Assembly (NCBI RefSeq): GCF_000372745.1
Contig: NZ_KB889719.1
Span: forward strand, 186,001 to 250,000
Direction: 5' to 3'
Source of the DNA: Embleya scabrispora DSM 41855
GTDB lineage: Bacteria; Actinomycetota; Actinomycetes; Streptomycetales; Streptomycetaceae
DNA: 64,000 nucleotides
Each line of letters opens with the position of its first letter. Within the stretch, counting starts at the first letter, position 1. This document shows positions 18,119 through 40,881 of this stretch, piece after piece. The position numbers and the translations under genes were made by a program. Under the pieces are notes generated by a model that saw only the letters and a program-made list of their open reading frames with translations, had not been told where the DNA came from and did no database searches.

Positions 18119-18139
18119 GGTGGGCGGGTTGGTGCGGCG

Positions 18140-20774: not shown

Positions 20775-20802
20775 CCCGCCGGGCAGTAGCGATCCGTTCG
20801 AC

Positions 20803-20835
20803 AAGCCCGCCCCACCGTGCCGGTGGGGCGGGCTT
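20803..20835 (+). terminator. terminator of the small secreted-protein gene
   Basis: AAGCCCGCCCCACCG, loop TGC, CGGTGGGGCGGGCTT: a perfect 15-bp stem 29 bases after the stop. Confidence 0.88.
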
Positions 20836-21255
20836 TGCCGTGCTCCGGGTCGGCTGTGACGAATACGGCCGGGTCGAGCCCGGTCGTGTGACATGCGGTC
20901 GAGTCGGATCCAGGGCAACCACGAGTTGTCGAACGATCGCTCCAGGTGATCGACGGAAACGGTTGAGGAATGTGGGGCGTTCGTTGCCGACGCGTGTGTC
21001 GGGATTGCTTTCCGGGACCCATGGGAAACCGGCCGCAGCAATTCGTGCGGTGGATATCGATACCCCGGCCCGATTGTCACGAGTCACCAAGATCACGACG
21101 CGTGTCGAGTGGTCCCGACGATTATCGGACGGTCGGTTTTATTTCTCGCCGCTGTCTCTGTCGTGCCGTCGGCGCGAGGAACGGAAGTCGTCAATCGACC
21201 AAAGGTCGAAATCCGGGAGGGCTGAGGGACGCCGGATTCCCCGGCCGGAGCACGC
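20836..21255. other. 420-base interval with an orphan upstream-element copy
   Basis: It lies between two terminators, so no flanking gene needs a promoter here. It nevertheless contains GAGTCACCAAGATCA (21081-21095), a partial copy of the block that precedes the promoters at 17955 and 19886, and CGCGTGTCGAG beside it. No TTGACT or gene follows. I read it as a remnant of a lost cluster gene; this is inference. Confidence 0.45.
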
Positions 21256-21295
21256 GAAGGGGCGGGAACCATCGATCGATGGTTCCCGCCCCTTC
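21256..21295 (-). terminator. terminator of the 21326-22453 gene
   Basis: A 40-base perfect palindrome with 20-base arms (GAAGGGGCGGGAACCATCGA) and no loop, 30 bases below the stop. Confidence 0.88.
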
Positions 21296-21325
21296 CGGTG
21301 CCCCAGGCGCCCTTGTGGGCGCCGT

Positions 21326-22453: not shown

Positions 22454-22540
22454 GAGGTGCTGCTCCCTGTCCTGCGTTCCTTGCCGGCGACGGGCGTTGG
22501 CGTCGCGTCGGCGGCATGGGGCGGATACGCGCGTGCTAAG

Positions 22541-22600
22541 TGGAACGTGTTACAGAAGTGGGGCGGGTCACATTGATGCGCTTTCATCCGGTGAAGTCAA
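22541..22600 (-). promoter_or_regulatory. cluster-type promoter and operator, 21326-22453 gene
   Basis: Minus strand: TTGACT (22600-22595), 18 bases, TCAATG (22576-22571), 16 bases, then the palindrome read on plus as TGGAACGTGTTACA (22541-22554), which overlaps the expected start of transcription. Confidence 0.68.
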
Positions 22601-22660
22601 GAGGCGCCAAGGGCACATGTGACCGGCGGGTATGCCTTCGCCGGGCTGCTGACCTGCAGT

Positions 22661-22696
22661 GACACGTGTCGTTCCGAAATGGTGGAACAAGTTCCA
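22661..22696. promoter_or_regulatory. distal operator pair: GACACGTGTC and perfect TGGAACAAGTTCCA
   Basis: GACACGTGTC (22661-22670) and the exact palindrome TGGAACAAGTTCCA (22683-22696, extending to GTGGAAC..GTTCCAC) lie 60 and 83 bases upstream of the -35 at 22600. The second is the best-formed copy of the operator found at the start sites of the cluster promoters. Confidence 0.6.
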
Positions 22697-22732
22697 CTTC
22701 TTGGTGCACGCGGGTGCCGTGGCAATGCGAAC

Positions 22733-22775
22733 GGGGCGCCCACCGACACCTTGGGAAGGTGTCGGTGGGCGCCCC
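22733..22775 (-). terminator. terminator of the 22795-25164 gene
   Basis: GGGGCGCCCACCGACACCTT and its exact complement around a GGG loop; 20-bp stem, 20 bases below the stop. Confidence 0.88.
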
Positions 22776-22794
22776 GGACAGGGCTGATGCGCCG

Positions 22795-25164
22795 TCAGGA
22801 GACGGTGAGCGTCAGGGTTCCCGTGTAGGTGCCGGCCGCCTGGTACGCCGGGATCGCGAGGGACAGGCCCGCGTTCGCGGTGAATACGCCACCGGTCTTG
22901 TGCGCCGGGTCCGTCGACGCCGCCGAGCTGCACAGCAGCCCGCCGTTGACGGTACCCGCCGAGCCGGTCACGACCTGGCTCGCCGAGTTCGGCTCGGCCA
23001 CGCACCGGGGCGTCCAGGACAACGCGGAGGCGGGCAGCGAGTTGCCGCCCTCCGCCTTGAAGTCCGAGACGGAACCGGTGAGTTGCCAACCGAGGGTGCC
23101 CTTGCGGGCATCGGTGACGGTGACCGCGTTCAGCGCGCCCGTCATCGACTGCTCACGGTTCGCGAACGGGACGTCCGCGAGCACGACGCCGTTGCCGGCC
23201 TGGGTCATCGACAGCGTCCCCGGCTCCTCACCGGGACCGCCGCCACCTTCGAAGGTGAACGCGGCGAGTGCCATCTTGTTGCGGTCGCTCTTCTCGGATG
23301 CCCGGATCTGCGTCGTGCCGGGCTTGGTCACCGTCAGATCGACGGCGAACGTACCGTCCGCGGTCGCGGTGGCCTCCACCGTGTCGCCGGTGGCACCGAG
23401 GGCCGCGTCCAGGGTCTCCAGCACGACGGCCGCGCCGGGGGTGAAGTTCTTCCCCGTCACATGTGCCTTCGTACCCGAGGGGCCCCGGTTCGGCGTGGCG
23501 GCGATCTCGCGCGGCAGTACGACCGCCGAGGTGATCGTGACCGGCGCCGTCAACGAGGTGACTCCGACGGTGACCTTGACCAGGTACTTGCCCGGCGTCA
23601 CCTGCGCGCCGAGCGTGGCCTGCGCGGTGAGCGCGCCGCCCTGTGCCACCGAGCCGGACCCGGCGACGAACGCCGAGCCGGAGCAGTCCGAACCGTCCTC
23701 CGCACACAGCTGGACCTGCGGATTGCCCTGGCCGGTCGGCCAGTTCGCCCCGGACAGCTTCACGACGTCACCCGGCTCGAGCAGGCTCTGATCCACGATC
23801 AGATTTGCCTGGTCGGGTCGGCCGACCGCGATCGAGTGCGAGACCTCCGGAGTTCCGGTGGGTACGCCGCTCGACGAGATGGTGATGACCTTCAAGCCGT
23901 ATCCGGCGGGAGCCAGATCGATGCGGCCCGCCTTGGTGATCTTGAAGGTGCCCTTCATGTCGCCGACCTTGAGCACCTCGCCGCCCGGAGTGGCCGGGTT
24001 GCCCTTGGGCCCGCTGACCGACACGTCGCCGGTCTGCGCGCCGGAGAGCTTCACGGTGCCGCTGGGCGTCACCGTGTCCTTGAGCGCGACCACCCAGCTG
24101 GAGGGGTTGCGCGGGTAGCCGATCCACTTCCAGTCGACGGTGACCTCGTCGCCGATCTCGTACCACGGCTTCGCCGGGGACACCGAGAGCGCGACCTGGG
24201 GTTCCCAGGCGAAGACGGGGCCGTTGCCCCACGCCGGGGTGTAGCGCACGCCGTACGTGACCGGCTCGGAGTGTCGCAGCGCGTCCTTGGTGACCGAGAT
24301 CGGCACCAGGACCGACGCGGTACCCGAGGTGATCCGGAGCTGGCGTACCGCGTCCGACAACCCGGCGGCCACTCGGACCTGGCCCGACAACTTTCCGGAG
24401 GCGTCGACGGTGAGGGTGGAGCCCGACGCCCCTTCCGCCGCACAGGCTTTGCCGTTCAGGTCGCACAATTCGACGTTGACACCGCTCGCGCCGACCGGCC
24501 AGTTCTCCCCGGTCGCGTCGACGGCCGCGCCCGGCCGGACCACGTTCCAGCCCAATGCCACGGTCGCCGGCTTGACCGTGCCGTCCACCGCGAGTGTCGC
24601 GCCCACACCCGGGGTGCCGTTGGGCGTGCACGGCGTGTCCCAACTGCCGAACATGTTCGCGGTGCTCGTGTAGCCGCCGGGGGAGAGCTTCAGTTCGCCC
24701 GGCTTGGCGATCTTCAACTTGCCCGTCATGGTCGACAGCCACAACTTCTCGCCGCCGGGGGTCTGCGCGTTCTTCTGCGGACCCTCCATGGCGATCTCGC
24801 CACCCTGCGCGCCGGAGACCAGGACCTTGCCCCGCGGCTTGACCGCGTCGGCGTTGACGGTCACGGAGGAAGGGTTCTTCGCCGCGTCCTTCCAGGTCCA
24901 GGTGACGGTGACCTCGTCGCCCACGTTGTACTTGGGCTTGACCGGATCGACCGTGAGGTCGACCTGGGCGTCGAAGTCGAACGGACCGCCACCGACGCTC
25001 GGCGGTATGCAGTGCACGTTGTACGTCACAGGAGCCGCGCTCGCGGACTGTGCCCCCGCGCCCACGCCCAGGGCACCGGCCACGAGGGCGGTACCGAGCA
25101 CGCCGGCCACACGCTTGTTGCGGAGTCTGGACCCAGTGCTTTCCCTGGTTCTTGGTCTGAGCAT
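22795..25164 (-). CDS. large secreted WxL-like protein with duplicated T1-Ig (T1-Ig-T1-Ig-IPT-WxL)
   Basis: A 789-residue exported protein, the largest of the cluster. Signal peptide residues 1-42 (MLRPRTRESTGSRLRNKR ... ASA-A). T1a (about 44-175): VHCIPPSVG, YNVGDEVTVTWTW, DTPCTPNG. Ig-a (about 185-280): VELCDLNGKACAA. T1b (about 290-420): EIGDEVTVDWKW and the same GTVKLSGAQTG...NPATPGGE run, but without either Cys. Ig-b (about 430-525): VQLCAEDGSDCSG. IPT-like (about 530-625): IAATPNRGPSGTKAHVTGKNF. WxL-like (about 640-789): MTGALNAVTVTDARKGTLGW, QLTGSVSDF, terminal YTGTLTLTVS. ATG 25164 follows GAGGAGGGACAGCACCAC. Confidence 0.83.
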   Translation of the reverse strand: MLRPRTRESTGSRLRNKRVAGVLGTALVAGALGVGAGAQSASAAPVTYNVHCIPPSVGGGPFDFDAQVDLTVDPVKPKYNVGDEVTVTWTWKDAAKNPSSVTVNADAVKPRGKVLVSGAQGGEIAMEGPQKNAQTPGGEKLWLSTMTGKLKIAKPGELKLSPGGYTSTANMFGSWDTPCTPNGTPGVGATLAVDGTVKPATVALGWNVVRPGAAVDATGENWPVGASGVNVELCDLNGKACAAEGASGSTLTVDASGKLSGQVRVAAGLSDAVRQLRITSGTASVLVPISVTKDALRHSEPVTYGVRYTPAWGNGPVFAWEPQVALSVSPAKPWYEIGDEVTVDWKWIGYPRNPSSWVVALKDTVTPSGTVKLSGAQTGDVSVSGPKGNPATPGGEVLKVGDMKGTFKITKAGRIDLAPAGYGLKVITISSSGVPTGTPEVSHSIAVGRPDQANLIVDQSLLEPGDVVKLSGANWPTGQGNPQVQLCAEDGSDCSGSAFVAGSGSVAQGGALTAQATLGAQVTPGKYLVKVTVGVTSLTAPVTITSAVVLPREIAATPNRGPSGTKAHVTGKNFTPGAAVVLETLDAALGATGDTVEATATADGTFAVDLTVTKPGTTQIRASEKSDRNKMALAAFTFEGGGGPGEEPGTLSMTQAGNGVVLADVPFANREQSMTGALNAVTVTDARKGTLGWQLTGSVSDFKAEGGNSLPASALSWTPRCVAEPNSASQVVTGSAGTVNGGLLCSSAASTDPAHKTGGVFTANAGLSLAIPAYQAAGTYTGTLTLTVS

Positions 25165-25364
25165 GTGGTGCTGTCCCTCCTCGGGATGCCTGCCTGGCCC
25201 GCCGGGGGAGCGGGCAGTCGAACACCACACCGGGACCGGTCCGCCGCCGTCGGTGACCCGCGCGGCGCGGGGCGGTCGATTCGGTGCCGTGCGCCGATTC
25301 GACGTCGGCGGGGTGACACCCGACCCCACCGTTGTCACCCGGTCGTTCTGCTGATGCCCTCTCC

Positions 25365-25423
25365 TGAAACCTGTTCCAGAAAACAGCGCCTCCCATTGAG
25401 CCCGGGGGCGTTTGCGAAGTCAA
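25365..25423 (-). promoter_or_regulatory. cluster-type promoter and operator, 22795-25164 gene
   Basis: Minus strand: TTGACT (25423-25418), 18 bases, TCAATG (25399-25394), 15 bases, then the palindrome read on plus as TGAAACCTGTTCCA (25365-25378). Confidence 0.7.
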
Positions 25424-25495
25424 CAGCGGAACGCGATCCGACGACAACGATTTGTGTGCGCACTCGCCGGGCGTTCGACGGGTGGGAATGGGCGA

Positions 25496-25538
25496 CGGGA
25501 CGCCCACCGCGCAGTGAGGGAATGCGGCGGACGCCCCG
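25496..25538 (-). terminator. probable terminator of the 25562-26884 gene
   Basis: CGGGACGCCCACCGC (25496-25510) faces GCGGCGGACGCCCCG (25524-25538). The three non-Watson-Crick positions become G-U pairs only in minus-strand RNA, which is the direction of the gene ending 24 bases above. Confidence 0.6.
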
Positions 25539-25561
25539 TGCCGATGAACCGATGCCTACTG

Positions 25562-26884
25562 TCAGGAAACCGACAGGGTCAGCGTCGCGCTGTAGTCGCC
25601 GGCGCCCTGGTAGGCCGGAACCTTCAGGTCGATGTCGGCGTCGGCGGAGAAGGTGCCACCGGTGTTGGTCGTGCCCTGGGCGACCGAGGCCAGGGTCGCG
25701 CCCGAGCCGATGGTGCCCGCGCTGCCCGCGACCGGGGTGCCCTTGGACTTCTCGTCGGCCTTTGCCGCCTTGGGCTTCCAGGAGAAGTTGTCGGCGGGGA
25801 TGGTCTCGCCGGCCTGGGTGGCGAACTCGGTGATCGAACCGGTCAGCGTCCAGCCGGCGTTGCCGCCGCGCAGGTCGGTCACGGTGACCGTGTTGAGCTT
25901 GCCGGTCATGGTCTGGTCCTGCGCGCTCACGCCGACCTCGGACAGCCGGATGCCGCCGGACTGCTGGCTGATGGACAGCGCGCCCGCGGTGATCGTGCCG
26001 TCCAGCTTCTGGGTCAGGTCGCCGGGCTCGGTCGGGTCGACCTTCTTGCGCACGAGCAACTGCGCCTGGCCGCTGTTGCCTTCGGCGTCGGCCACGGCGA
26101 GGGTGTGGATGCCGTTGGCGACGTTGTCGGCCAGCTTGACGTTGCCGGTCAGGTTGCCGGACGCGTCCACGGCGAGCGTGGAGGCGGCGATTTTGGCGGC
26201 GTCGCCGTCCAGCGTCGCGGTGACCGCACCGGGCGCGAACTTGCTCCCGGTCAGGGCCACTTCACTGCCGGGCTCGACCGCGGTGGAGGGCGCGTTCAGC
26301 ACCGGCTTGTCGGCCGCGCCGACCTTGAGCGTGGCCGAGGGGGCGACCGCGGTGACCGGGTTGCACTTGGTCTCGGCGTCCAGGCCGAACGCCTTGGTGA
26401 AGGTCGAGTACAGGCCCGGGGTCAGCGTCACGTCGCCGGCCTGGGTCAGCTTGACCTTGCCGGTCATGTTGGTGAGCACGAGCTCCTGGCCCGGCAGGGT
26501 TTCCGGGTTGATCCGCTGGCCCTCGACCGCGACCGCGCCGGTGGCCGCGCCGCCCAGGGTGACGCTGCCCTTGGGCAGGGTGGAGTCCTTGTCCACCTTG
26601 CCGACCACGGGGATCTCCGGCGGCGCCTTCGGGTACGACTTCCAGGTCCAGGTGACGGTGACCTCTTCGCCGATGTCGTAGCGCGCCTTGGCGGGCGCCA
26701 CCGACAGGTCGATCTTGAGGTCGCCATCCGGGATGACCAGGTTCGGGACGATCTGGTTGACGCAGTGCGAGGTGTAGTTCACATCGGCCGCGTTCGCGGT
26801 GGGCGCGAGGGCCACCATGCCGACGGTGCCGGCGATCGTCACGACGCCGAGCGACGCGGCGAGTTGCCTGTTTGCCTTGAACAT
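25562..26884 (-). CDS. secreted WxL-like domain protein (T1-Ig-WxL, cysteine-less Ig)
   Basis: A 440-residue exported protein. Signal peptide residues 1-31 (MFKANRQLAASLG ... ANA-A). T1 (about 33-185): SHCVNQI, YDIGEEVTVTWTWKS, closing ETKCNPVT. Ig-like (about 195-275) keeps the strand pattern (STAVEPGSEVALTGSKFAPG ... VTATLDGDAAKIA) but has lost both cysteines. A short charged linker (RKKVDPTEPGDLTQ) replaces the IPT module. WxL-like (about 300-440): MTGKLNTVTVTDLRGGNAGW, TLTGSITEF, terminal YSATLTLSVS. ATG 26884 follows AAAAGGAACGCACC. Confidence 0.82.
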   Translation of the reverse strand: MFKANRQLAASLGVVTIAGTVGMVALAPTANAADVNYTSHCVNQIVPNLVIPDGDLKIDLSVAPAKARYDIGEEVTVTWTWKSYPKAPPEIPVVGKVDKDSTLPKGSVTLGGAATGAVAVEGQRINPETLPGQELVLTNMTGKVKLTQAGDVTLTPGLYSTFTKAFGLDAETKCNPVTAVAPSATLKVGAADKPVLNAPSTAVEPGSEVALTGSKFAPGAVTATLDGDAAKIAASTLAVDASGNLTGNVKLADNVANGIHTLAVADAEGNSGQAQLLVRKKVDPTEPGDLTQKLDGTITAGALSISQQSGGIRLSEVGVSAQDQTMTGKLNTVTVTDLRGGNAGWTLTGSITEFATQAGETIPADNFSWKPKAAKADEKSKGTPVAGSAGTIGSGATLASVAQGTTNTGGTFSADADIDLKVPAYQGAGDYSATLTLSVS

Positions 26885-27059
26885 ATGGTGCGTTCCTTTT
26901 CTCGGATACCGCTCTGCCGGCGCCGGGGAGGGCGGGGCAGCCGAAACATCACTTCGAGCGACCGGGCGCGCCGCCGGGCATGGACATGCCGTGCGGGGCC
27001 TCGGTGCCTCGTGCATGGCCGGGCGGGTGCCGCCGTGAGGTGCGGCCCTGCCGAGCGGG

Positions 27060-27118
27060 TGGAACGTGTTACAGAAATCGTGCGTGATCATTCCGCTTCA
27101 CGTAGATCGCAAAGTCAA
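27060..27118 (-). promoter_or_regulatory. cluster-type promoter and operator, 25562-26884 gene
   Basis: Minus strand: TTGACT (27118-27113), 18 bases, GGAATG (27094-27089), 15 bases, then the palindrome read on plus as TGGAACGTGTTACA (27060-27073), identical to the copy at 22541. Confidence 0.66.
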
Positions 27119-27142
27119 GGGCTTCACCCGTGGAAACGAAAA

Positions 27143-27177
27143 GGACGCCCTCCTCGCACGATGCGAGGAGGGCGTCC
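27143..27177 (-). terminator. terminator of the 27195-28457 gene
   Basis: GGACGCCCTCCTCGCA, loop CGA, TGCGAGGAGGGCGTCC: a perfect 16-bp stem 18 bases below the stop. Confidence 0.88.
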
Positions 27178-27194
27178 CGGTCTCTGACGGTGAC

Positions 27195-28457
27195 TCAGCT
27201 CAGACTGAGCGTCAGGTTCCCGGTGTAGGCGTCGGAGCGCGAGCCGCCGGGGAGCGACAGGTTCAGCAGGGCGTTCGCCTCGAACGCCCCACCGGTGACC
27301 GCGCCGGTGCTCGGGTTCTGCCGACACAGCACTTCGGCGCTGCCGCCGACCGTGCCGGGCACTCCGGTGCCGACGGTGGCGGGCGGGCCCTCGACGGTGG
27401 TGCAGGCGGGGATCCAGGTGAGCCGCTGGGCCGGGACGATCTCGCCGCCCTGGCCGACGAAGTCACTGGCCTGCGCGGTCAGCGTCCAGCCGAGTGTGCT
27501 GCCGCGCCGGTCCAGGATGGACACCGGATTGAGCCGCCCCTCCAACTGCTGCGCGTCGCCGCTGGGTTGGAACTGCGGCATGGTCACGCCGGCCGAGTTC
27601 TGGCGCATGAACAGCGGTCCGGCCACGGTGTCCACGGGGGTCTGCGGCACCTGGCCTGCGGGCGGCGGCGGAAGCGGCGGTGTGCTCGGGGGAGGCGCGG
27701 TCGCCCCGGTGGATGGGCCGGGAGTGGCGCCGGTTCCGCCGAGGGTGGGATCGCCGGTGGCGCCCACGGTGCCGGCGGTCGGGTCGATCGTGGCGCCGCC
27801 GGAGGGTGGGGCGGTGGGCGTGCCCGGGGTGGTGCCGTTGCCGGAGGAGCCGCCGTTGGCGGAGCCACCGCCCGCGCTCTGGCCCGGGGTCTGGGTCATG
27901 CCGACCTGGATGCTCGCCGACACCGGCAGCCGGTCCGGATGGACCGGGGTGCATGGGGAGTCCCGGACCGCGAGCTGCTTGAGCACGTACGCGCCGGGGG
28001 CGAGGTCGATGCGACCCTCGGCGGCGATGGTGAACCGGCCGGTCATGTCCGCGACCGGGAGCGGTTGTGAGCCGCCGACGCTCGGGTGCTTCGCGGGGCC
28101 GGTGAGCACGATGTCGCCGACCTGGGCGTTGGAGAGCTTGACCATGGCATCCGGCGTCTCGGCGTTGGCGGGTACGTCGATCCACGCCCAGGGGTTGCGT
28201 GGCGGCGTGGCCCAGTGCCAGGTGACGGTCACCTCCTCGCCGACCTTGTACGTGCCCTGCTTGGGTGCCGACACGGACAACTCGATCCTGGGCTTCCAGG
28301 TGAAGTCGGGACCGGCCGCGATCGGCGGTCGGCAACTCACCTCGTGCTCCACGGGCGCCGCCTGGGCCCCGGGTGCGACCGCCGTGAGACCTGCCGCGCC
28401 GGCGGCGAGCACGCCCGCCCCCAGCATCGCGAACAGCCTCCTGCGGGGTGGAACCAT
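27195..28457 (-). CDS. secreted WxL-like domain protein (T1-linker-WxL)
   Basis: A 420-residue exported protein. Signal peptide residues 1-34 (MVPPRRRLFAML ... AQA-A). T1 (about 36-185): VSCRPPIAAG, YKVGEEVTVTWHWAT, closing DSPCTPVH. Ig and IPT modules are replaced by a Gly/Pro/Thr/Ser-rich linker (about 190-265) that probably spans the wall. WxL-like (about 270-420): LEGRLNPVSILDRRGSTLGW, TLTAQASDF, two Cys (PACTTV, VLCRQN) and terminal YTGNLTLSLS. ATG 28457 is chosen because the signal peptide starts there; AAGGGAG lies 11 bases upstream. Confidence 0.8.
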   Translation of the reverse strand: MVPPRRRLFAMLGAGVLAAGAAGLTAVAPGAQAAPVEHEVSCRPPIAAGPDFTWKPRIELSVSAPKQGTYKVGEEVTVTWHWATPPRNPWAWIDVPANAETPDAMVKLSNAQVGDIVLTGPAKHPSVGGSQPLPVADMTGRFTIAAEGRIDLAPGAYVLKQLAVRDSPCTPVHPDRLPVSASIQVGMTQTPGQSAGGGSANGGSSGNGTTPGTPTAPPSGGATIDPTAGTVGATGDPTLGGTGATPGPSTGATAPPPSTPPLPPPPAGQVPQTPVDTVAGPLFMRQNSAGVTMPQFQPSGDAQQLEGRLNPVSILDRRGSTLGWTLTAQASDFVGQGGEIVPAQRLTWIPACTTVEGPPATVGTGVPGTVGGSAEVLCRQNPSTGAVTGGAFEANALLNLSLPGGSRSDAYTGNLTLSLS

Positions 28458-29303: not shown

Positions 29304-30206
29304 ATGGTCAGGCCCTATAAGCGAACCGCGGGCGGCTTGGCGGCGTTCGCCGTCATGGCGGGCGGCATGCTGGCGTTCGCGCCGCAGGCCGGCGCCGCGC
29401 CGGTCACCACGCAGGTGAAGTGTGACTTCACCGACGATCTGGTCATCAAGGCGATGGACAACAAGACGTCGGTCTCCGGCGCGCAGCCCTTCACGATCAC
29501 CGGCCCCGCCGACGCGACGGCCGGCAAGTCGATTCAACTCGCCATCGACCCGGGTGTCAGCCCCGCGTCCTCCCCGCTCAAGGCCCCCATCAAGATCACC
29601 CCCACGGTCGTCTTCGACGCGAAGTCCGACGGTGGGACCGCGACGCTGACGGCGGTGGGCGCGACCAGCACCATCACGGTGGAGGCGAAGGTCGGGATCG
29701 ACGTTCCGAAGTTCAACGCCAACGTGCAGTTGCCGAGCAATGCCAAGGGCAAGGTCGAGCTGAGCCCCAAGAAGTTCTCGCTGAAGATCGAGGTCATCGA
29801 CCCGCCGCTGGAGTTCACGGTGCCGTGCAACATGACCTCGACGGCGGTTGCCTACTCGGTCACCACCCCGGGCGCCTCGACGAGCAGCGGCTCCACCTCG
29901 GGCACCACGAGCGGCTCCACCTCGGGCACCACGAGCGGCACGACCTCGGGCACCACGAGCGGCACGACCTCGGGCACGACGAGCGGCACGACCTCGGGTA
30001 CCACGAGTGGTACCACCACAGGGACCACGAGTGGCACGAGCTCGGGCACGACGGCCGGCACCACCACCGGCTCGGGCACGCTGCCCAAGACCGGACCGCT
30101 GGACGACGCGCTGTCGATGGGTCTGCTCGGTGGGACCGTCGGGCTGCTCGGCGTCGGCGGGGTGTTGCTCGCGACCCGACGGGTGCGGTCCTCGCGCAAC
30201 GCCTGA
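29304..30206 (+). CDS. sortase-anchored T2 surface protein with TSG-repeat stalk (LPKTG)
   Basis: A 300-residue wall protein. Signal peptide residues 1-31 (MVRPYKRTAGGLA ... AGA-A). T2 (about 33-185): VKCDFTDDLV, DPGVSPASSPLKAP, closing VPCNMTST. Then a stalk of about 65 residues, almost only Thr, Ser and Gly (TSGT repeats, about 190-256). The C-terminus is a classical sorting signal: LPKTG (about residues 258-262), hydrophobic segment MGLLGGTVGLLGVGGVLLA, and RRVRSSR tail. Covalent attachment by a sortase is inferred; no sortase gene is in the window. ATG 29304 follows GAAGGGAG. Confidence 0.88.
   Translation: MVRPYKRTAGGLAAFAVMAGGMLAFAPQAGAAPVTTQVKCDFTDDLVIKAMDNKTSVSGAQPFTITGPADATAGKSIQLAIDPGVSPASSPLKAPIKITPTVVFDAKSDGGTATLTAVGATSTITVEAKVGIDVPKFNANVQLPSNAKGKVELSPKKFSLKIEVIDPPLEFTVPCNMTSTAVAYSVTTPGASTSSGSTSGTTSGSTSGTTSGTTSGTTSGTTSGTTSGTTSGTTSGTTTGTTSGTSSGTTAGTTTGSGTLPKTGPLDDALSMGLLGGTVGLLGVGGVLLATRRVRSSRNA
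29875..30078 (+). repeat. tandem 12-base repeats coding the TSG stalk
   Basis: Imperfect 12-base units of the form ACCTCGGGCACG / ACGAGCGGCACC encode Thr-Ser-Gly-Thr/Ser. About 15 units can be read. The tract is likely to change length by slippage and to be hard to assemble. Confidence 0.8.
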
Positions 30207-30547: not shown

Positions 30548-32146
30548 ATGTTCAAACCCAGCAAGAAGGTCGTTGCGACGTTCGGCGTCGCGATGATCGC
30601 AGGTACCGCCGGCTTGGTCGCGGGAGCGCCGGCGGCGTTCGCCGGGTCGGTCAACCCGGACCTGCGCTGCACCGAGCCGATCTTGCATTGGAACAAGACC
30701 GGCAAGCAGACGTTCGACGCGACCCTGACGCCGGCCACCGGCAACGCGCCGGGCACGGTGAAGATCAAGATCGACGCGGGGGAGAACCCGCTGCGTCCCG
30801 ACAGTGACTTCGAGAACATCGGATTCGTCGGCAAGTACACCTTCACCTTGAGTACCGGCGGCGAAGTAACCGTGGTCGCCCCGGAGTTCAAGGCGAAGAT
30901 CGGCCCCAACACCGGCATCAACCCGCCGGAGTTCACGGCCGACCTGGCGATCCCGCAGGCCGCGCCCGGGACGCAGATCGATCTCACGCTCAAGACGTTC
31001 GCACTGGACGTCAACGTGCCCGGTCTGCCGGCCCCCACCACCACGGCCACGTGTGAGGTCACCGGCAGCAACGGCGTTATCGCCTCCTACAAGGTCGCCG
31101 AGGCCCCGCCGCAGGACCCGACCCTGACCACCACGCCCGGACAGGTCAAGCCCGGCGGTGCCCTCACCGTCGCCGGGACGAACTGGCCGGCCGGTACGCC
31201 CACGGTCGAACTGTGCGACGCGAGCGGCAACGCCTGCGACGCGACCAAGGTCACCGGCGCGCTCACGGTCACGGATGGCGCGCTCGCCGGTACCGCGACG
31301 ATCGGCGCGACCGTCGCGGACGGCTCGTACCAGCTCAAGGTCACCGTCGGCGACAAGTCCAAGACGTCGAACGTCTCGGTCAAGGCCGATGTGCCGAGCA
31401 ACCCGCGCAAGCTCGTGCTGAACCCGACCCACGGGCCGGTCGGTACCGAGGTCACCGTCGCCGGCGAGGGCTACACGCCCGGCGCGGATGTGTACGTGAT
31501 CCCGACCAACGCCGCTCAGCAGCCGGACGTTCCCGGTCTGGTGATGGCGAAGGCGGGCACCGACGGCAAGTTCACCGCCAAGGTGAAGGTCAACAAGGCC
31601 GACACCACGCTGATCGCGGCGTCCGAGGACACCACCGGCACGCTGTCCGCCGGTGCGCCGTTCACGGTCGACGGCAACCCCCCGGCCGGCTCGCTCAAGC
31701 AGGACCTCACCGGCACGATCGCCGGCGGCGCCCTGACGATCTCTCAGGAGAACGGCGGGATCAAGCTCTCCGACGTGACCCTGAACGGCACCGAGCAGAA
31801 CATGACCGGCGCGCTCAACACGGTGACGGTCAAGGACTACCGCGGTGGCGCCACCGGTTGGACGCTGACCGGTGCGGTGACCGACTTCAGCAACGGCGCG
31901 GGCGGCACCATCCCGGCGGAGAAGTTCTCCTGGGTCCCGAAGATCACTCCGGGCGAGGGTTCGCCGAGCCAGGCCGTCGCCGGTAGCGCGGGCCCGATCG
32001 GCAAGACCGGCGCCACCCTGGCCTCCGCGCCCAACGCGGACGTCACCGGCGGCACGTTCAAGGCCGACGCGGGTCTGGCCCTGGCGGTCCCGGCCTACCA
32101 GGCGCCCGGCAACTACAGCGGGACGCTCACTCTCTCCATCTCCTGA
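30548..32146 (+). CDS. secreted WxL-like domain protein (T2-Ig-IPT-WxL)
   Basis: A 532-residue exported protein. Signal peptide residues 1-32 (MFKPSKKVVATFG ... AFA-G). It combines a T2 N-terminus (about 35-180; LRCTEPILHW ... ATCEVTGS) with the Ig/IPT/WxL back end of the T1 proteins: Ig-like (about 190-280) with VELCDASGNACDA, IPT-like (about 285-375) opening LVLNPTHGPVGTEVTVAGEGY, and WxL-like (about 385-532) with MTGALNTVTVKDYRGGATGW, TLTGAVTDF and terminal YSGTLTLSIS. ATG 30548 follows AAGGGAGCAGCACC. It shows that front and back modules are exchanged between cluster genes. Confidence 0.85.
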   Translation: MFKPSKKVVATFGVAMIAGTAGLVAGAPAAFAGSVNPDLRCTEPILHWNKTGKQTFDATLTPATGNAPGTVKIKIDAGENPLRPDSDFENIGFVGKYTFTLSTGGEVTVVAPEFKAKIGPNTGINPPEFTADLAIPQAAPGTQIDLTLKTFALDVNVPGLPAPTTTATCEVTGSNGVIASYKVAEAPPQDPTLTTTPGQVKPGGALTVAGTNWPAGTPTVELCDASGNACDATKVTGALTVTDGALAGTATIGATVADGSYQLKVTVGDKSKTSNVSVKADVPSNPRKLVLNPTHGPVGTEVTVAGEGYTPGADVYVIPTNAAQQPDVPGLVMAKAGTDGKFTAKVKVNKADTTLIAASEDTTGTLSAGAPFTVDGNPPAGSLKQDLTGTIAGGALTISQENGGIKLSDVTLNGTEQNMTGALNTVTVKDYRGGATGWTLTGAVTDFSNGAGGTIPAEKFSWVPKITPGEGSPSQAVAGSAGPIGKTGATLASAPNADVTGGTFKADAGLALAVPAYQAPGNYSGTLTLSIS

Positions 32147-32429: not shown

Positions 32430-34277
32430 ATGACGGGCACCCCGGCCCCCCCGAGCCGCCGGCAAGGCGGACGAATCCGATCCCTGGCCACTCTGTTCGC
32501 GGTGCTGGCCACGCTGTTCGCGTCCCTGACGCTGGTCGCGCCGACCCCCGCGTCCGCCGCGGGCAACGGCGAATGGTCGGTCGACCCGTACGTGCCCGAC
32601 GGCACGAGCCAGAACGCCCGTCGCTACTTCTTCCTCGAAGGCGCCGCCGGCACCACCGTCCCCGACGTGGTGACCCTGCACAACACGAGCCAGGCGCCGC
32701 TCACCATGAAGCTGTTCGGCGCGGACGCGTACAACACGCCGCGCGACGGCGGCTTCGCGCTGCGCACGGTCACCGACAAGCAGAAGGACGTCGGTACCTG
32801 GATCCAGGTGGCGCCGGAGAACCAGACGCTGACCCTGCAGCCGGGGGAGAAGCGTCAGGTCCCGTTCAACATCGTCATCCCGCCCAACGCGACGCCCGGT
32901 GACCACCCCGGCGCCATCGTCGCGCTCAACACCGCGATCGAGGGCACCCAGCAGCAGGGCCAGATAAAGGTCAACATCCAGCGCCAGATCGGCGCCCGGG
33001 TGTACCTGCGGGTGCAGGGCGACGCGCTGCCGGCGATGGACATCCAAAAGGTCGAGGTCAAGCGGGACGCGGGCTTCCACGAGTTCTTCGGTTCGAGCAA
33101 GGCGAAGATCACCTACCGGATCATCAACCGGGGCAACGTGATCCTGCGCCCCAAGTTCCGGCTCAAGGCCGAGGGCCTGTTCGGCCGCGAGCTGATGAGC
33201 AAGGCCGACGAAGGCGCCGAGATCCTCCCCGGGTCGACCGTGGAGAAGGTCGTCGAGTGGAAGGACGCGCCGCGGCTGGACCACGTCACCGTCAAGGTCG
33301 ACGGCGTCGTCGCGGACCAGAACCTCAAGGACGACGCGAGCGCTTCGTACACGGCCGTGCCGTGGCCCAGCCTGCTCACCCTGGCCGCCATCCTGCTGGT
33401 GGCGGGCGTCGGGTGGGGCCTGTGGCGCAACGGACGCAAGGGCAAGGGCAACGGCGGAGACCCGGCCGAGCCCGGCGGCCCGGTGGGGCCGACCGACGAC
33501 ACGACCGTGCTGCCGCCGATCCCGGCCGCGTCCGCACCGACCGGCGAGGCCGTTGCCGAGCACGCACAGCCCGCGTCCGCGCCGGCGGCGGAGCAGGTGC
33601 CGGCCGAACCCGCGAAGGCGGCGGCGTCGGCGGAGACTTCCGGTGAGGCCGCGGACGCCGAAGTGGCGGGCGAGAAGTCCGCGGCGGAGGCCGACGAGGC
33701 GCCGGTCGACAGCGGGCCGGTCGTGATCGCGAAGGATGCGAAGGCGGAGCAGGCCGAGGAGAAGCCGGCCGACGTCGTGGTGGGTGAAAACGAGTCGGCT
33801 GTGGCCGAACAAGCCGACGACAAGCAGGTCGATGCCGAGGCGAACGCGGCGCCGGCGACCGAGGACGCCGCAGCCGACGGCAAGGCCGACGAGGCCGAGT
33901 CGGCCGATGGTGCGGCTGTGGTGAGCACCGATGCCGAGGTAACTCCCGCTGTGGACAAGCCCGCCGGGGAGGCTTCCACCGATGCGGAGGCGGCCCCGGA
34001 TACGGCTGCCGAGGCCGAGGCCGACGCTGCATCCGCCGCACCGGTTGCCGAGCAGTCGGCCGTCACCGAGCCGGTGGCCGAGGCCGAGTCCGCTCCCACT
34101 GAGCCTGCCCCCACTGAGTCGCCGGCCGAGGCCGAGGCCGAGCCGGCCGTCGAGCCCGCCGCCGCGCCCGCGAAGAAGGCCGCCAAGCGCCCGAAGGGCA
34201 AGCAGCCCCCGGCCCGCCCGCGCGCGGACGCCCCGGCAGCCGAGGACTCCGCCGATTCCGCGGGGGTCGGCCGTTGA
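32430..34277 (+). CDS. DUF916/WxL-interacting-type membrane protein with long acidic tail
   Basis: A 615-residue type I membrane protein. Signal peptide residues 1-44 (ends ASA-A). The extracellular part (about 45-305) opens EWSVDPYVPDGTSQNARRYFFLEGAAGTTV, then LHNTSQAPLTMKLFGADAYNTPRDGGFAL and VPFNIVIPPNATPGDHPGAIVA, the pattern of the DUF916 peptidoglycan-binding domain, followed by a DUF3324-like beta domain (YRIINRGNVILRPKFRL). One membrane helix is about 312-332 (SLLTLAAILLVAGVGWGLW). The remaining 283 residues are a cytoplasmic Ala/Glu/Asp tail ending in a basic KKAAKRPKGK patch. In Firmicutes such proteins hold WxL proteins at the wall. TTGA overlap couples it to the next gene. ATG 32430 follows GGAG. 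Confidence 0.85.
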   Translation: MTGTPAPPSRRQGGRIRSLATLFAVLATLFASLTLVAPTPASAAGNGEWSVDPYVPDGTSQNARRYFFLEGAAGTTVPDVVTLHNTSQAPLTMKLFGADAYNTPRDGGFALRTVTDKQKDVGTWIQVAPENQTLTLQPGEKRQVPFNIVIPPNATPGDHPGAIVALNTAIEGTQQQGQIKVNIQRQIGARVYLRVQGDALPAMDIQKVEVKRDAGFHEFFGSSKAKITYRIINRGNVILRPKFRLKAEGLFGRELMSKADEGAEILPGSTVEKVVEWKDAPRLDHVTVKVDGVVADQNLKDDASASYTAVPWPSLLTLAAILLVAGVGWGLWRNGRKGKGNGGDPAEPGGPVGPTDDTTVLPPIPAASAPTGEAVAEHAQPASAPAAEQVPAEPAKAAASAETSGEAADAEVAGEKSAAEADEAPVDSGPVVIAKDAKAEQAEEKPADVVVGENESAVAEQADDKQVDAEANAAPATEDAAADGKADEAESADGAAVVSTDAEVTPAVDKPAGEASTDAEAAPDTAAEAEADAASAAPVAEQSAVTEPVAEAESAPTEPAPTESPAEAEAEPAVEPAAAPAKKAAKRPKGKQPPARPRADAPAAEDSADSAGVGR

Positions 34278-35485
34278 TCGTGGTCGACCGGGTTCGTCAC
34301 GCGGCTCGGGCCGGCCGCGCCCGCGGTGCCGCCCTCGCGCTGATCGCCGTGCTGCTCTCGGGGCTGGTCGCCCTGGGCGGCACGGCGCCCGCGCGTGCGG
34401 CGGACCCGGCACCGGCCGCGGGCCCGAGCGCGTCGATCGACCCGGGCAAGGTCGCGGCCGGGGACAAGGTCTCGGTCGTCGGTGGTGACTGGACCCCCGG
34501 CTCCCTCGTCCAGGCGAGCATCTGCGGGGAGAACGGTCTGCGCGGCACGGTCAACTGTGCCGCGGCCAGTGCCGCGAGTGGGACCGTGGACGCCGGCGGC
34601 AACGTCTCGATCACCCTGACCGCCGCCGTCCCGCCGTCCCCGTGCCCGTGCGTGGTGCGGATCGCGGTGATCATGAACGGGCCGCCGAAGGACGCGAGCG
34701 TGCCGCTGGAGATCGACGGCGCGCCGTACGCTCCGCTGCCGGCGACGGTCAAGACGCCCGGTCGGCTCGTCTTCATCGACAGTGCCATGGCCGGCGAGGA
34801 CTCGATCTTCACCTGGTTCGGCTCGCCCGTGCAGCGCCGGTTCCGGATCGAGGTGGGCAACATGGGGCAATCGCCCATCGTCAACCCCACCTTCCGGATC
34901 GGCTTCTACGAAGGGGTCTACGCCCCGACCTGGGAAGACTACGAGTCGCACGTCACCATCCCGCCGGGCAAGCGCACCACCATCTCGCTCCCGGTGGAAC
35001 TGAAACCCCGTCAGCACGGCACCTTCAGTTGGCGGGTGACCTACGACAACCAGGTCGTGGACGAACAGGCCCTGGAGGTCGGCCGTCCGTGGGGCGTCTA
35101 CATCTTCGGCGCGCTCCTGGTGATCGTGGTCCCGGTGGCGGCCTGGCGGCTGTTCCTGCGGGTCGTCGAACTGATCGGCGAGCAGCGGGCCCGCCGTACG
35201 AGCGAGCGCGAGCGCGAAGTCGGGCTGGCCGAGGCGCCGTCCCGGCTGACCCGGGACGACAAGAACCGAAGGTCCGCCGAGGACAGGGCGGATGACGGTG
35301 AGTCGGATTCCAGGACCGCGAACAGACGCCCGACCGATTCCTCGGCCGCACCGGTGGACCTGAGCAAGCGCCCGGTCCGCTCGATGGTCGAGACGATGGT
35401 GATCGGCGGTCCGCTGTACGCGGGTTCCGAGCCCGGCGAGGACGACCACCCCCGCGCCGGCGAGTCAGGGGGGCCCGAACGATGA
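34274..35485 (+). CDS. membrane protein with neocarzinostatin-like and Ig-like ectodomain
   Basis: A 403-residue type I membrane protein. Signal peptide residues 1-42 (ends ARA-A). The first domain (about 50-145), SIDPGKVAAGDKVSVVGGDW, TPGSLVQASIC and NCAAASAASGTV, matches the neocarzinostatin-like Ig fold also used in the cluster's secreted proteins; PSPCPC adds a further Cys pair. A second beta domain follows (about 180-265; FRIEVGNMGQSPIVNPTFRIGFYEG). Membrane helix about 273-295, then a charged 108-residue cytoplasmic tail. TTG 34274 overlaps the upstream stop (GTG 34280 is the alternative), and its stop overlaps the next start (ATGA), so all three are translationally coupled. A receptor or scaffold role is inferred. 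Confidence 0.78.
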   Translation: MIVVDRVRHAARAGRARGAALALIAVLLSGLVALGGTAPARAADPAPAAGPSASIDPGKVAAGDKVSVVGGDWTPGSLVQASICGENGLRGTVNCAAASAASGTVDAGGNVSITLTAAVPPSPCPCVVRIAVIMNGPPKDASVPLEIDGAPYAPLPATVKTPGRLVFIDSAMAGEDSIFTWFGSPVQRRFRIEVGNMGQSPIVNPTFRIGFYEGVYAPTWEDYESHVTIPPGKRTTISLPVELKPRQHGTFSWRVTYDNQVVDEQALEVGRPWGVYIFGALLVIVVPVAAWRLFLRVVELIGEQRARRTSEREREVGLAEAPSRLTRDDKNRRSAEDRADDGESDSRTANRRPTDSSAAPVDLSKRPVRSMVETMVIGGPLYAGSEPGEDDHPRAGESGGPER

Positions 35486-36258
35486 GCGCGCGACCCGGCA
35501 GGGGGCTCGGCGCCCTGATCGCGACGACCGCCGTCGTCGGCACCGTGCTCGTGTTCTATTACGGGCCGGGCGGCGGCGAGTTCGGCCCGTCGCACACCAA
35601 CGTCACCGATCAGGCGGGCCCCAGCGGCGGCGGCACCTTCCGGCCGACTCCGACCACCGCCGGTGACGACACGAACTCCGCTCCGCCGAACGACGCTTCA
35701 GCCGGCCCGAACACGTCCGGGTCCGGCGGGAGCGACGGCGGCGGATCGGCCCCCGGCGCGGGAGACCTCGACTGGGACACGAAGATCGAGCAACCCAGCT
35801 CTCCGGCCCGGGTGGACGGCAACGTCAACCCGGGTGTTCTGGCGGTCAGTACACCGAACGCCGGACACAGCCGGCTCACCGTGGACCGGGCCGGCGGCAC
35901 CGCCAAGGGTGTGCTGAATCCGATGCTGGTCCAGGACTTTCGCGGGTCGCGCAACGGGTGGACCCTCACCGGCGCGATGTCCGACTTCCGGGCGGAGGAC
36001 GGAACCCGGATCGAGGCGCACAACCTCGTCTGGGATCCGTACTGCACACCGCACCCGGGACGCGGCCCCTATCCCAGCTCGGCGAAGCCCGGGAACCGGG
36101 CGCAGTCGAGCCGTACGGCGACCCTGTGCTCGACATCGTCATCACCGAGCGTCACGGGGGGTGAATTCGACGTCGGCGCGGAGCTGACCCTGCGGCTGCC
36201 CGACCGGAACACAACCGCCGAGAGCTACTCGGCGACGTTGACGCTCACGCTCAGCTGA
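35482..36258 (+). CDS. membrane-anchored minimal WxL-like protein
   Basis: A 258-residue protein. An N-terminal hydrophobic segment (GALIATTAVVGTVLVFYYG, about residues 10-28) lacks a cleavage motif and should act as an uncleaved anchor. A disordered Gly/Ser/Pro/Thr linker (about 30-95) leads to a single WxL-like module (about 100-258): GVLNPMLVQDFRGSRNGW, TLTGAMSDF, a Cys pair (DPYCTPHPG, ATLCSTSS) and terminal YSATLTLTLS. Its ATG overlaps the upstream stop as ATGA. Being the only WxL-like protein coupled to the DUF916 protein and tied to the membrane, it may be the nucleating partner for the secreted ones; inference. Confidence 0.8.
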   Translation: MSARPGRGLGALIATTAVVGTVLVFYYGPGGGEFGPSHTNVTDQAGPSGGGTFRPTPTTAGDDTNSAPPNDASAGPNTSGSGGSDGGGSAPGAGDLDWDTKIEQPSSPARVDGNVNPGVLAVSTPNAGHSRLTVDRAGGTAKGVLNPMLVQDFRGSRNGWTLTGAMSDFRAEDGTRIEAHNLVWDPYCTPHPGRGPYPSSAKPGNRAQSSRTATLCSTSSSPSVTGGEFDVGAELTLRLPDRNTTAESYSATLTLTLS

Positions 36259-36305: not shown

Positions 36306-37604
36306 ATGAAGCGCCATATCACGCGTACCGCGATGGCGGGGGCTGCGGCCCTGGCCATTGCGTCCGGCGGCCTGCTCGGCCTGTCCGGAACGGCGGTCGC
36401 CGCCGAGGTGGTCGTGCCCGACACCTGCAAGCTGCCGCCCCTCGCCGGCGGCCAGGACGTCACGAACGACCAGAAGATCGAACTTGTGATGCCGACGGGT
36501 GCGGTCAAGCCCGGCAACGTCGCGACGGTCGGGGTCAAGATGGGCCCGACCGGGCAGAAGGCGCCGGCCAAGCTCAACAACGACTTCACCTTCTCCATGA
36601 CCTTCGAGGTCGGCGGGGGCGGCGGCACCACCAAGGAGGTGAAGCTCGAAGGCGGTGGGAAGCTCGTCGCCGAGAGCGGGGGGGATGTCGCGCTCCCGCA
36701 GTTCGACGGCAAGATCACGATCCCCGCCGACCTCAAGAGCGACATCACGCTCAAGCCGAAGGAATGGACGACGGTCGTCAAGATCCTCGGCGATCAGGTG
36801 ACGGTGTGCAAGCCGACCGGGACGGCACCTGACCTCGGCACGCTCAAGATCAGCGAGGACGGCGGCGGCGACCCGCCCGCCGGCGCCCCGAACGGCAAGG
36901 ACGTCACGGTCGACTACACCTGTGACATCTACCTGGGCAGCGACAAGTTCGGCGATCCGCTGCCGCTGAAGTCGACCATCAAGGTGATCGTGCCCAGTGC
37001 CGCCAAGCCGAACGAAAAGGTGGCGGTCCAGGCGAAGTTCAAGGACGACATCCTGGGGACCGCCCCCTCGATCACGCCGGCGAACGGGGTCGAGGCGACC
37101 GTTACCCCGACCCTCACCATCGACACCACGGGCGGCGACAAGAAGCCGTTCAACGTCGCGCTGCCGGCCAAGAAGGTCAGCATCAAGCCGGGTGACCAGA
37201 TCAAGGCGGCCGGACCGCTCACAGGTGAGTTCACGGTCGGCGCGGCGGGCGACTACACGTTCAGCCCGGGCGCGTTCAACCTGGGTCTGGAGATCCCGGG
37301 CGAGCAGGTGATCAAGGTCGATCTCAAGTGCAAGGCCACCAAGACCGATGTCTCGGCCACCCTCAAGGCGAAGGGCGATGGTGGCACCTCGTCCGGGAAC
37401 GTCACCCAGACCCCCACGGGCAACGTCGGCAGTGACGGCGGCAGCACCACCACCAACGGCGGCGCCACCGGCGACCTCGCGCACACCGGCGCCTCCGGCG
37501 GCGGCATGACCGCGTTCGCGATGGCGGCCGGCACCGCCGTGCTCGGTGCGATCGCGCTGATGTTGTTCGTGCCCTACCGGCGGCGGATCCGCAACCAGGT
37601 CTGA
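36306..37604 (+). CDS. sortase-anchored surface protein with two T2-like modules (LAHTG)
   Basis: A 432-residue wall protein 47 bases after the coupled trio and probably in the same operon. Signal peptide residues 1-33 (MKRHITRTAMAG ... AVA-A). Two T2-like modules follow: about 35-165 (PDTCKLPP ... VTVCKPTG) and about 200-350 (DYTCDIYLG ... VDLKCKAT), each with one Cys near either end. A Gly/Thr/Asn-rich linker leads to LAHTG (about residues 396-400), a hydrophobic segment (AFAMAAGTAVLGAIALMLFV) and a RRRIR tail, the class E-type LAXTG sorting signal usual in streptomycetes. ATG 36306 follows GAAGGGAG. Confidence 0.86.
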   Translation: MKRHITRTAMAGAAALAIASGGLLGLSGTAVAAEVVVPDTCKLPPLAGGQDVTNDQKIELVMPTGAVKPGNVATVGVKMGPTGQKAPAKLNNDFTFSMTFEVGGGGGTTKEVKLEGGGKLVAESGGDVALPQFDGKITIPADLKSDITLKPKEWTTVVKILGDQVTVCKPTGTAPDLGTLKISEDGGGDPPAGAPNGKDVTVDYTCDIYLGSDKFGDPLPLKSTIKVIVPSAAKPNEKVAVQAKFKDDILGTAPSITPANGVEATVTPTLTIDTTGGDKKPFNVALPAKKVSIKPGDQIKAAGPLTGEFTVGAAGDYTFSPGAFNLGLEIPGEQVIKVDLKCKATKTDVSATLKAKGDGGTSSGNVTQTPTGNVGSDGGSTTTNGGATGDLAHTGASGGGMTAFAMAAGTAVLGAIALMLFVPYRRRIRNQV

Positions 37605-38860: not shown

Positions 38861-39532
38861 ATGACCCGCGTACTGCTCGCCGAGGACGACGCATCCATCT
38901 CCGAACCGCTCGCGCGTGCGTTGCGCCGAGAGGGCTACGAGGTCGAGGTGCGCGAGGACGGTCCAAGCGCTCTCGAATGCGCCGCGCAGAGCGGGGTGGA
39001 CCTGCTCGTCCTGGACCTCGGTCTGCCCGGGATGGACGGCCTGGAGGTGTGCCGGCGGCTGCGTGCCGAAGGGCACGGCTTCCCGGTTCTGGTCCTGACC
39101 GCGCGCGCCGACGAAGTGGACACAGTGGTCGGCCTCGACGCCGGCGCCGACGACTACGTCACCAAACCCTTCCGGCTCGCCGAGCTGCTCGCCCGGGTGC
39201 GCGCGCTGCTCCGGCGCGGCGCGGCCGACGTCGGTCAGGGGGTGCACGGCGTGCGGATCGACGTCGACTCGCATCGCGCCTGGATCGGCGAGGAGGAGCT
39301 TCAGCTCACCGCCAAGGAGTTCGACCTGCTCCGGGTGCTGGTGCGCGACGCCGGCCGGGTGGTCACCCGCGACCAACTGATGCGCGAGGTGTGGGACACC
39401 ACGTGGTGGAGTTCCACCAAGACGCTGGACATGCACATCTCGTGGCTGCGCAAGAAGCTCGGTGACGACGCGGGCAACCCCCGTTACATCACCACCGTGC
39501 GCGGCGTGGGCTTTCGCTTCGAGAAGAGCTGA
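38861..39532 (+). CDS. OmpR/PhoB-family response regulator
   Basis: A 223-residue two-domain regulator. The receiver domain (residues 1-115) has VLLAEDDASIS (acidic pocket), LLVLDLGLPGMDGLEV (phospho-Asp about residue 51), VLVLTARADEVD and DDYVTKPFRLAELLARV (Lys 101 region). The winged-helix output domain (about 128-220) reads LTAKEFDLLRVLVRDAGRVVTRDQLMREVW and LDMHISWLRKKLGDD with RYITTVRGVGFRF. It is paired with the histidine kinase 83 bases downstream. Position directly after the surface-protein cluster makes that cluster a candidate target, inferred only. ATG 38861 follows AAGGTC. Confidence 0.93.
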   Translation: MTRVLLAEDDASISEPLARALRREGYEVEVREDGPSALECAAQSGVDLLVLDLGLPGMDGLEVCRRLRAEGHGFPVLVLTARADEVDTVVGLDAGADDYVTKPFRLAELLARVRALLRRGAADVGQGVHGVRIDVDSHRAWIGEEELQLTAKEFDLLRVLVRDAGRVVTRDQLMREVWDTTWWSSTKTLDMHISWLRKKLGDDAGNPRYITTVRGVGFRFEKS

Positions 39533-39615
39533 CCTCGGGCGGCCGGGCCGACTTCGCGGGTGCCGATCTCGGAGCCGACCTCAGAGCCGACCTCGGAAAG
39601 CTGACGGGACCAACC

Positions 39616-40881
39616 TTGCGTCGCAGGCTCATCAACACCACGCTCGGCGTGGTTCTGGTCGTGGTGGCCGTGCTCGGCGTGCCGTTGGCGTTCGTGGAGA
39701 CCCACGCGATCGAGAACAGCGCGGGTGACAGCCTCAAGGCCGAGGCCGCGCGCATCCTGGAGGTCGTCGAGCTGCGCATGGCCTCCGGCGAACGTTCGGA
39801 CGCGGAACTGCTGCATCGGCAGATCGAACCGCATCGCTACGCGATCGTGCGACTGTCGGGGGAGCCCCCGCTGGTGATCGGCGACAAGCCGAGCGGCCGG
39901 GTATTCGAGAAGGACATGCACGGCGAGATGGGCGACTCGGTCACCGTCGGCGAACCGCGCGGTCGGGTCACCGGCAAGATCCGCGAATCCCTCCTGCTCA
40001 TCCTGGGGGTGGCGCTGCTCGCCGTCGCCGCGGCCGCCGCCCTCGCGGTGTGGCAGGCCCGCCGGCTCGCCCGCCCGCTGACCGACCTGGCCGAGACCGC
40101 CGAACGGCTCGGCTCCGGTGACCCCCGGCCCCGACACCGCCGGTACGGCGTGCCCGAGCTGGATCGCGTCGCCGAGGTGCTGGACCAGAGCGCCGAGCGG
40201 GTCGCGAGGATGCTCACCGCCGAGCGCCGGCTCGCCGCGGACGCCTCCCACCAACTGCGCACGCCGCTCACGGCGCTGTCCATGCGGCTGGAGGAGATCA
40301 TCGCGACCGAGGACCCGGAGATCGTCAAGGAGGAGGCCGCGATTGCGTTGTCCCAGGTCGAGCGGCTGACCGACGTGGTGCAGCGGCTGCTGACCAGCAG
40401 TCGGCGCGGCAGCGGCGGGCGCGACCCGCGCAACATGTCCGCGGTCACCGTCCGGGTGGACGATGTGATCCAACAGCAGATCGACGAGTGGCGACCCAAC
40501 TTCCGCGAGGCCGGACGCAGCATCCGGGTCGAGGGGGAGCGCGGGCTGACCGCCGTGGCCACCCCCGGGGCGCTGTCCCAGGTGCTGGCGACGCTGGTCG
40601 AGAACACGCTCATGCACGGTGCGGGCGGGGTGAACATCCGCACGCGTACCACCGGCACCTCGGTGGTGGTCGAGGTCGAGGACGAGGGCACGGGAGTGCC
40701 GGACGAGCTGGGTGCGCGGGTGTTCGAACGGGCGGTCAGCGGCCACAACTCGACCGGCCTGGGACTCGCGGTCGCCCGGGACCTGGCCGAGGCGGACGGC
40801 GGCCGGCTGGAGCTGCTCCAACAGCGCCCACCGGTGTTCGCGGTGTTCCTGGCGGCGCACCCGGAGGAGCCGCCCGGGTGA
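39616..40881 (+). CDS. sensor histidine kinase
   Basis: A 421-residue membrane kinase. TM1 is about 8-28 (TLGVVLVVVAVLGVPLAFV); the periplasmic sensor is about 30-122; TM2 is about 123-147 (LLLILGVALLAVAAAAALAV). A HAMP-like linker (ARRLARPLTDLAETAERLGSG) follows, then the H box AADASHQLRTPLTALSMRLEE (His about residue 213), the N box LATLVENTLMHGAGG, and the G boxes VEDEGTGVPDELGARVF and STGLGLAVARDLAEADGG. The start is TTG at 39616; no better codon gives the leading MRRRLIN before TM1. It pairs with the upstream response regulator. Confidence 0.9.
   Translation: MRRRLINTTLGVVLVVVAVLGVPLAFVETHAIENSAGDSLKAEAARILEVVELRMASGERSDAELLHRQIEPHRYAIVRLSGEPPLVIGDKPSGRVFEKDMHGEMGDSVTVGEPRGRVTGKIRESLLLILGVALLAVAAAAALAVWQARRLARPLTDLAETAERLGSGDPRPRHRRYGVPELDRVAEVLDQSAERVARMLTAERRLAADASHQLRTPLTALSMRLEEIIATEDPEIVKEEAAIALSQVERLTDVVQRLLTSSRRGSGGRDPRNMSAVTVRVDDVIQQQIDEWRPNFREAGRSIRVEGERGLTAVATPGALSQVLATLVENTLMHGAGGVNIRTRTTGTSVVVEVEDEGTGVPDELGARVFERAVSGHNSTGLGLAVARDLAEADGGRLELLQQRPPVFAVFLAAHPEEPPG

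Follow-up and report, generated by a model that had tools for sequence, protein, structure and literature searches.

What do three overlapping genes inside a surface-protein cluster of Embleya scabrispora DSM 41855 (Streptomycetaceae) make together, and for which partners? The window, meaning the whole stretch of DNA analysed, comprised 64,000 nt (contig NZ_KB889719.1, positions 186,001-250,000) of a genome of 11.39 Mb, and the closest named relative among the compared loci was Embleya hyalina. Genes were called over the window with a codon-usage gene caller and domain profiles. Gene 1 (D) encodes a DUF916 protein, gene 2 (MID) a membrane protein with a neocarzinostatin-like domain and gene 3 a membrane-anchored WxL-like protein (Table 1). 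An earlier note on this DNA had read all three as one core complex that receives secreted WxL-like proteins. The three genes and their TTGA and ATGA overlaps were real in the sequence, and the coupled expression drawn from the overlaps and the placing of beta domains outside the membrane were retained. An alternative MID start, GTG at 34280, was not conserved, and the TTG start was conserved in 4/4 Embleya genomes. Overall, the reading that is somewhat favoured is that D and MID are coupled membrane proteins which act as one membrane-anchored holder for actinobacterial surface proteins.

A total of 115 distinct MID loci were compared; the counts come from related genomes and are not independent, and a few loci represent one genome seen twice. 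D was found directly upstream of MID in 106 loci and in the same frame in another three, giving 109/115, while the six remaining loci comprised five without D and one at a contig edge. In 102 of the 106 adjacent pairs the MID frame was open in the register required for overlapping the stop codon of D by 4 bases, and the overlapping codon was ATG, GTG or TTG in 92 of them (NTGA overlap). This register occurred more often than expected by chance. Natural fusions with no stop between D and MID were present in S. nigrescens (L098) and S. celluloflavus (L119). At the third same-frame locus (L131, Streptomyces flaveolus; 8657-11053 and 9378-9929) the DUF916 gene looks frameshifted and MID is intact. 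Among the MID loci compared, gene 3 followed MID in Embleya and in Yinghuangia, its sister genus, and in no other. The adjacency proposed for the three genes thus held in related genomes for genes 1 and 2, and for gene 3 in these two genera alone, so the conserved unit is D-MID and not the trio.

MID was present in 33/61 relatives and, in a sample of 198 genomes from across the class, in 23, of which 19 gave matches with E better than 1e-13. A pattern scan of 84,980 species genomes returned 487 MID relatives, of which the best 80 were kept, all from Streptomycetaceae. The suggestion that MID is a lineage-specific subunit does not fit with this wide occurrence among actinobacteria. No MID was found on plasmids. 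Conservation of the D-MID pair extended beyond Streptomycetaceae to a second family of the same order and to three more families of the class; in the families outside the order, f7 (genomes of 1.0-1.7 Mb), f19 and f39, D and MID stood together with a WxL-like gene close by. DUF916 was distributed more widely than MID (55/198 class genomes), and the other DUF916 locus types had other neighbours.

D matched PF06030 (WxLIP_PGBD) at 35.2 bits against a cut-off of 27.3. Its layout consisted of a signal peptide, the PGBD, a second immunoglobulin (Ig) domain, a transmembrane (TM) helix (residues 312-336) and a cytoplasmic tail, and hydropathy gave an N-terminal signal-like segment and one C-terminal TM helix. 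Compared with the PDB, the AlphaFold2 model of D (mean pLDDT 79.8, alignment of 29 sequences) matched best two chains of Enterococcus faecium WxLIP (EfmWxLIP1), 9i25_C and 9i1y_A, with Z 14.4 and 13.7 and a root-mean-square deviation (rmsd) of 5.6-5.7 over 238 residues. Both domains were covered (model residues 46-311 for 9i25_C). In addition, a profile of actinobacterial DUF916 proteins matched the EfmWxLIP1 chains by sequence (E 2e-4). In the order of its domains, its fold and its C-terminal TM helix, D is a genuine WxLIP. The tail of D (33453-34274) has 275 residues, is Ala/Glu-rich and cytoplasmic, and was much shorter in the relatives examined outside Embleya.

For MID, the AlphaFold2 model and hydropathy gave a signal peptide, a first domain (residues 48-149), a second (162-270) and a helix (273-315) containing the TM segment; the hydropathy profile showed an N-terminal signal-like segment and one C-terminal TM helix. 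The head was neocarzinostatin-like, as the earlier note had recognised, with macromomycin (Z 12.0) and neocarzinostatin (Z 11.9) standing above the next rows at an rmsd of 1.9-2.2 over 94-96 residues. PF00960, the family of these enediyne carriers, gave 16.1 bits with the window MID, below its cut-off, and matched 41/43 MID relatives at E up to 0.01; a single Streptomycetaceae member exceeded the cut-off, at 28.9 bits. No PF06030 match was found in MID, nor any profile similarity between the first domains of MID and D. The second domains of MID and DUF916 proteins gave a profile probability of 87-92% in a first set of alignments and of 82-84% when the alignments were deeper, and reversed and column-shuffled controls remained below 1%. 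MID would accordingly follow the plan of D, with a head, a WxLIP-like second domain and a TM helix, the head being of the neocarzinostatin fold.

The partners of D were approached through its first domain. For Firmicutes WxLIP, an AlphaFold2 prediction in PMC10599100 has a long first-domain hairpin becoming a strand of the WxL sandwich. Residues 167-191 of D align with a 21-residue stretch of EfmWxLIP1, and we read them, from model and alignment, as this published hairpin. The hairpin measured 23-25 residues in 26/26 DUF916 genes of WxL-linked MID-type loci and 20-23 residues in 20 DUF916 genes of other locus types, nearly all beside a WxL-like gene. In 74/74 DUF916 genes of loci without WxL the region had 8-18 residues, mostly 11. 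Genome G011 contained both states, a locus without WxL and without hairpin (L050) and a locus with both (L164). D would bind WxL through this flexible hairpin, which would insert a strand into the WxL-like domains that its secreted partners carry.

Many Streptomyces loci keep the pair with no WxL gene nearby, which does not fit the claim that it receives WxL proteins alone. The order S1-D-MID-S2 without a WxL gene was found in 63 loci, mostly Streptomyces, where S1 carries a single SEC domain and S2 several. A sortase-like motif was present in 107/121 S1 open reading frames (ORFs), mostly LPxTG, and in 93/96 S2 ORFs, mostly LAxTG; the different signals suggest two sortases. In five loci (L057, L101, L117, L136 and L142) D was missing and MID stood beside S1, with S2 also in three. 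As the pair is kept where WxL was lost, a second kind of surface protein is probably held too. SEC domains as hidden WxL domains were ruled out by sequence, with no profile similarity to WxL, DUF916 or MID domains.

In the proposed mechanism, D and MID would be produced together through translational coupling of their overlapping genes and would each cross the membrane once; overlap, adjacency and fusions suggest that they sit side by side, probably in physical contact. MID would most likely hold the SEC-domain proteins S1 and S2, which a sortase would later tie to the wall, a link drawn from Streptomycetaceae. Gene 3 would be a later addition, restricted to Embleya and Yinghuangia, that fixes a WxL-like domain on the membrane beside the pair. 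A more specific version can be put forward tentatively: a two-headed holder that takes WxL proteins by strand insertion and SEC or sortase-type proteins by the MID head, of which Streptomyces would have discarded the WxL half (hairpin and ligand) and kept the MID half.

Three observations weigh against the holder and its parts. On the MID tree the WxL trait needs two changes, one of which strongly supported branches make unavoidable, and two are needed for the hairpin as well; the correlation of hairpin and WxL therefore represents one or two evolutionary events and not a hundred, and an independent-pairs test was powerless. SEC domains were weak or not detected next to MID in f7, f19 and f39, so SEC proteins are not the sole partner of MID in these families. 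Finally, comparison of MID and DUF916 proteins over their whole length, with two other alignments, showed the domain-2 similarity at 2% only, and some MID second domains also matched the broad NEW3 family PF10633. For these two reasons the likeness of MID domain 2 to WxLIP domain 2 is kept as moderately supported, and it may reflect the wider Ig superfamily.

The main rival to the holder, and a rather doubtful one, is that D-MID is a transient membrane-tethered donor-strand chaperone pair through which secreted WxL and SEC proteins stay folded on their way to the wall or to a sortase. The D model resembles the chaperone-usher chaperones Caf1M, CsuC and YadV (Z 10.4-10.5), the two-domain Ig layout and expected strand donation are shared with them, and strand insertion into WxL, as predicted in PMC10599100, is like donor-strand complementation. 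The putative clients S1 and S2 also bear sortase signals and would need handing on. However, many unrelated Ig-fold proteins score equally high against the D model, and the title of the solved entry, WxLIP bound to long WxL, fits a stable complex. D is, moreover, membrane-anchored in a monoderm, and no usher or pilus genes were seen; the resemblance is one of fold only.

A single obligate core complex of all three gene products, serving secreted WxL-like proteins, is unlikely. The overlaps do join all three, and gene 3 does follow MID in Embleya and Yinghuangia, but it does not occur after MID in other groups, and in 74 loci DUF916 has no WxL gene nearby. The gene 3 protein consists of one N-terminal hydrophobic segment (a type II anchor or uncleaved signal), a low-complexity linker and a C-terminal WxL-like domain. 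Its topology differs from that of D and MID because the sole hydrophobic segment is N-terminal, without a C-terminal TM helix. It scored 20.1 bits with PF13731, under the cut-off of 25, and carries the first W-x-L motif (GWTL). The second motif was found in 0/71 actinobacterial WxL-like domains, gene 3 included, the C-terminus reading TLTLTL instead. A profile of these actinobacterial domains matched no solved WxL chain by sequence. Least probable of all is that MID binds a ligand through its neocarzinostatin-type head, or that its C-P-C motif (114/114 MID sequences; residues 124-126 in the window, coded at 34643-34651, + strand) binds metal or exchanges disulfides, since no ligand evidence was found and since secreted proteins of the cluster contain this Ig module in the form of plain repeats, suggesting that its role is structural.

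The surface-gene block runs from 12740 to 38694. Directly after it come the genes of a response regulator and a histidine kinase, which may regulate the cluster. PF13731 was above its cut-off at 25577-26041 and 22804-23151, with 42.9 bits for the best cluster member. A secreted cluster protein at 16129-17649 has four MID-type (neocarzinostatin-like) Ig repeats, with PF00960 over the cut-off and no WxL domain. In Embleya and Yinghuangia relatives, a gene of 223 aa follows at the corresponding position. The same genome has a second WxL-DUF916 locus (L059, 7982-12105, contig C187), in which the gene after DUF916, in the place of MID, encodes a protein that has a sortase signal (LPLTG) and an Ig domain like that of MID. 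In another DUF916/WxL locus type, sortase-domain proteins lie just downstream (PF04203 over the cut-off in the three tested). They read VTADGP or VTTSGN-like where the catalytic TLxTC is expected and, by eye, look catalytically dead.

Table 1. Features of the D-MID locus and its surroundings; positions are those of the window except in the last row, where they are those of the loci named.
Feature	Position	Strand	Basis or remark
Gene 1 (D; DUF916/WxLIP)	32430-34277	+	ATG start, 615 aa
Gene 2 (MID)	34274-35485	+	TTG start, 403 aa
Gene 3 (membrane-anchored WxL-like)	35482-36258	+	ATG start, 258 aa
TTGA overlap, D stop/MID start	34274-34277	+	sequence
ATGA overlap, MID stop/gene 3 start	35482-35485	+	sequence
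D hairpin region, residues 167-191	32928-33002	+	two short strands, modelled with less confidence than the rest of the folded part
WxL-like domains of the window among the 71 compared	31676-32143, 35797-36255
Secreted S1-type protein with one SEC domain and sortase signal LPKTG	29304-30206	+	gene call, domain match
Long secreted WxL-like protein with SEC domain, two Ig repeats of MID type and a WxL-like domain at the C-terminus	30548-32146	+	
S2-type protein, two SEC domains, LAHTG sortase signal	36306-37604	+	gene call, domain match
SEC-domain protein, C-terminal TM segment	37834-38694	+	gene call, domain match
Further surface genes	12740-28427	mostly -	gene calls, domain matches
Six WxL-like genes within 12740-28427	12740-14062, 14353-15903, 18140-19744, 22795-25110, 25562-26884, 27195-28427
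Response regulator and DraK-type histidine kinase, directly downstream of the cluster	38861-40881	+	Pfam matches
Sortase-domain proteins of another DUF916/WxL locus type	L159 3552-4679, L160 1942-3180, L162 4223-5170, L163 7633-8580, L167 2405-3493, L168 5029-6099

The closest described systems are the csc/WxL clusters of Firmicutes, for which four families are given (PMC1534035, PMC10599100): CscA, a WxLIP; CscB and CscC, both WxL; and CscD, a small LPxTG protein. The actinobacterial loci share with them one DUF916 membrane protein per locus with the WxLIP fold over both domains, WxL-type secreted proteins and an LPxTG protein in one surface cluster. They differ in their host (Actinomycetota), in the addition of MID and the SEC-domain proteins S1 and S2, in WxL-like domains without the second motif and in the existence of WxL-free versions. 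The absence of the middle subunit from the Firmicutes clusters, as the earlier note had put it, agrees with their published description, which lists CscA to CscD only (PMC1534035), although no direct search of Firmicutes genomes was made. Compared with neocarzinostatin and macromomycin, MID shares the fold of the head but is membrane-anchored and has a second domain and the C-P-C motif, and nothing hints at a chromophore. DUF916 genes were reported in 2025 near a metalloprotein family (PMC12537917). Among 5.39 million open papers, a search for WxL or DUF916 together with Actinobacteria or Streptomyces turned up no description of the system; most subscription papers lay outside this search, and the novelty of the D-MID system is provisional.

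WxL systems were described as Firmicutes surface systems in the papers found, and here they occur in actinobacteria, namely Embleya, Yinghuangia, other Streptomycetaceae and members of further families, where MID is an additional conserved subunit. The WxL-free loci amount to a naturally occurring deletion experiment on the hairpin mechanism proposed for WxLIP. Finally, the holder proposed here would give a testable function to a four-gene surface locus that is found in many Streptomyces genomes.

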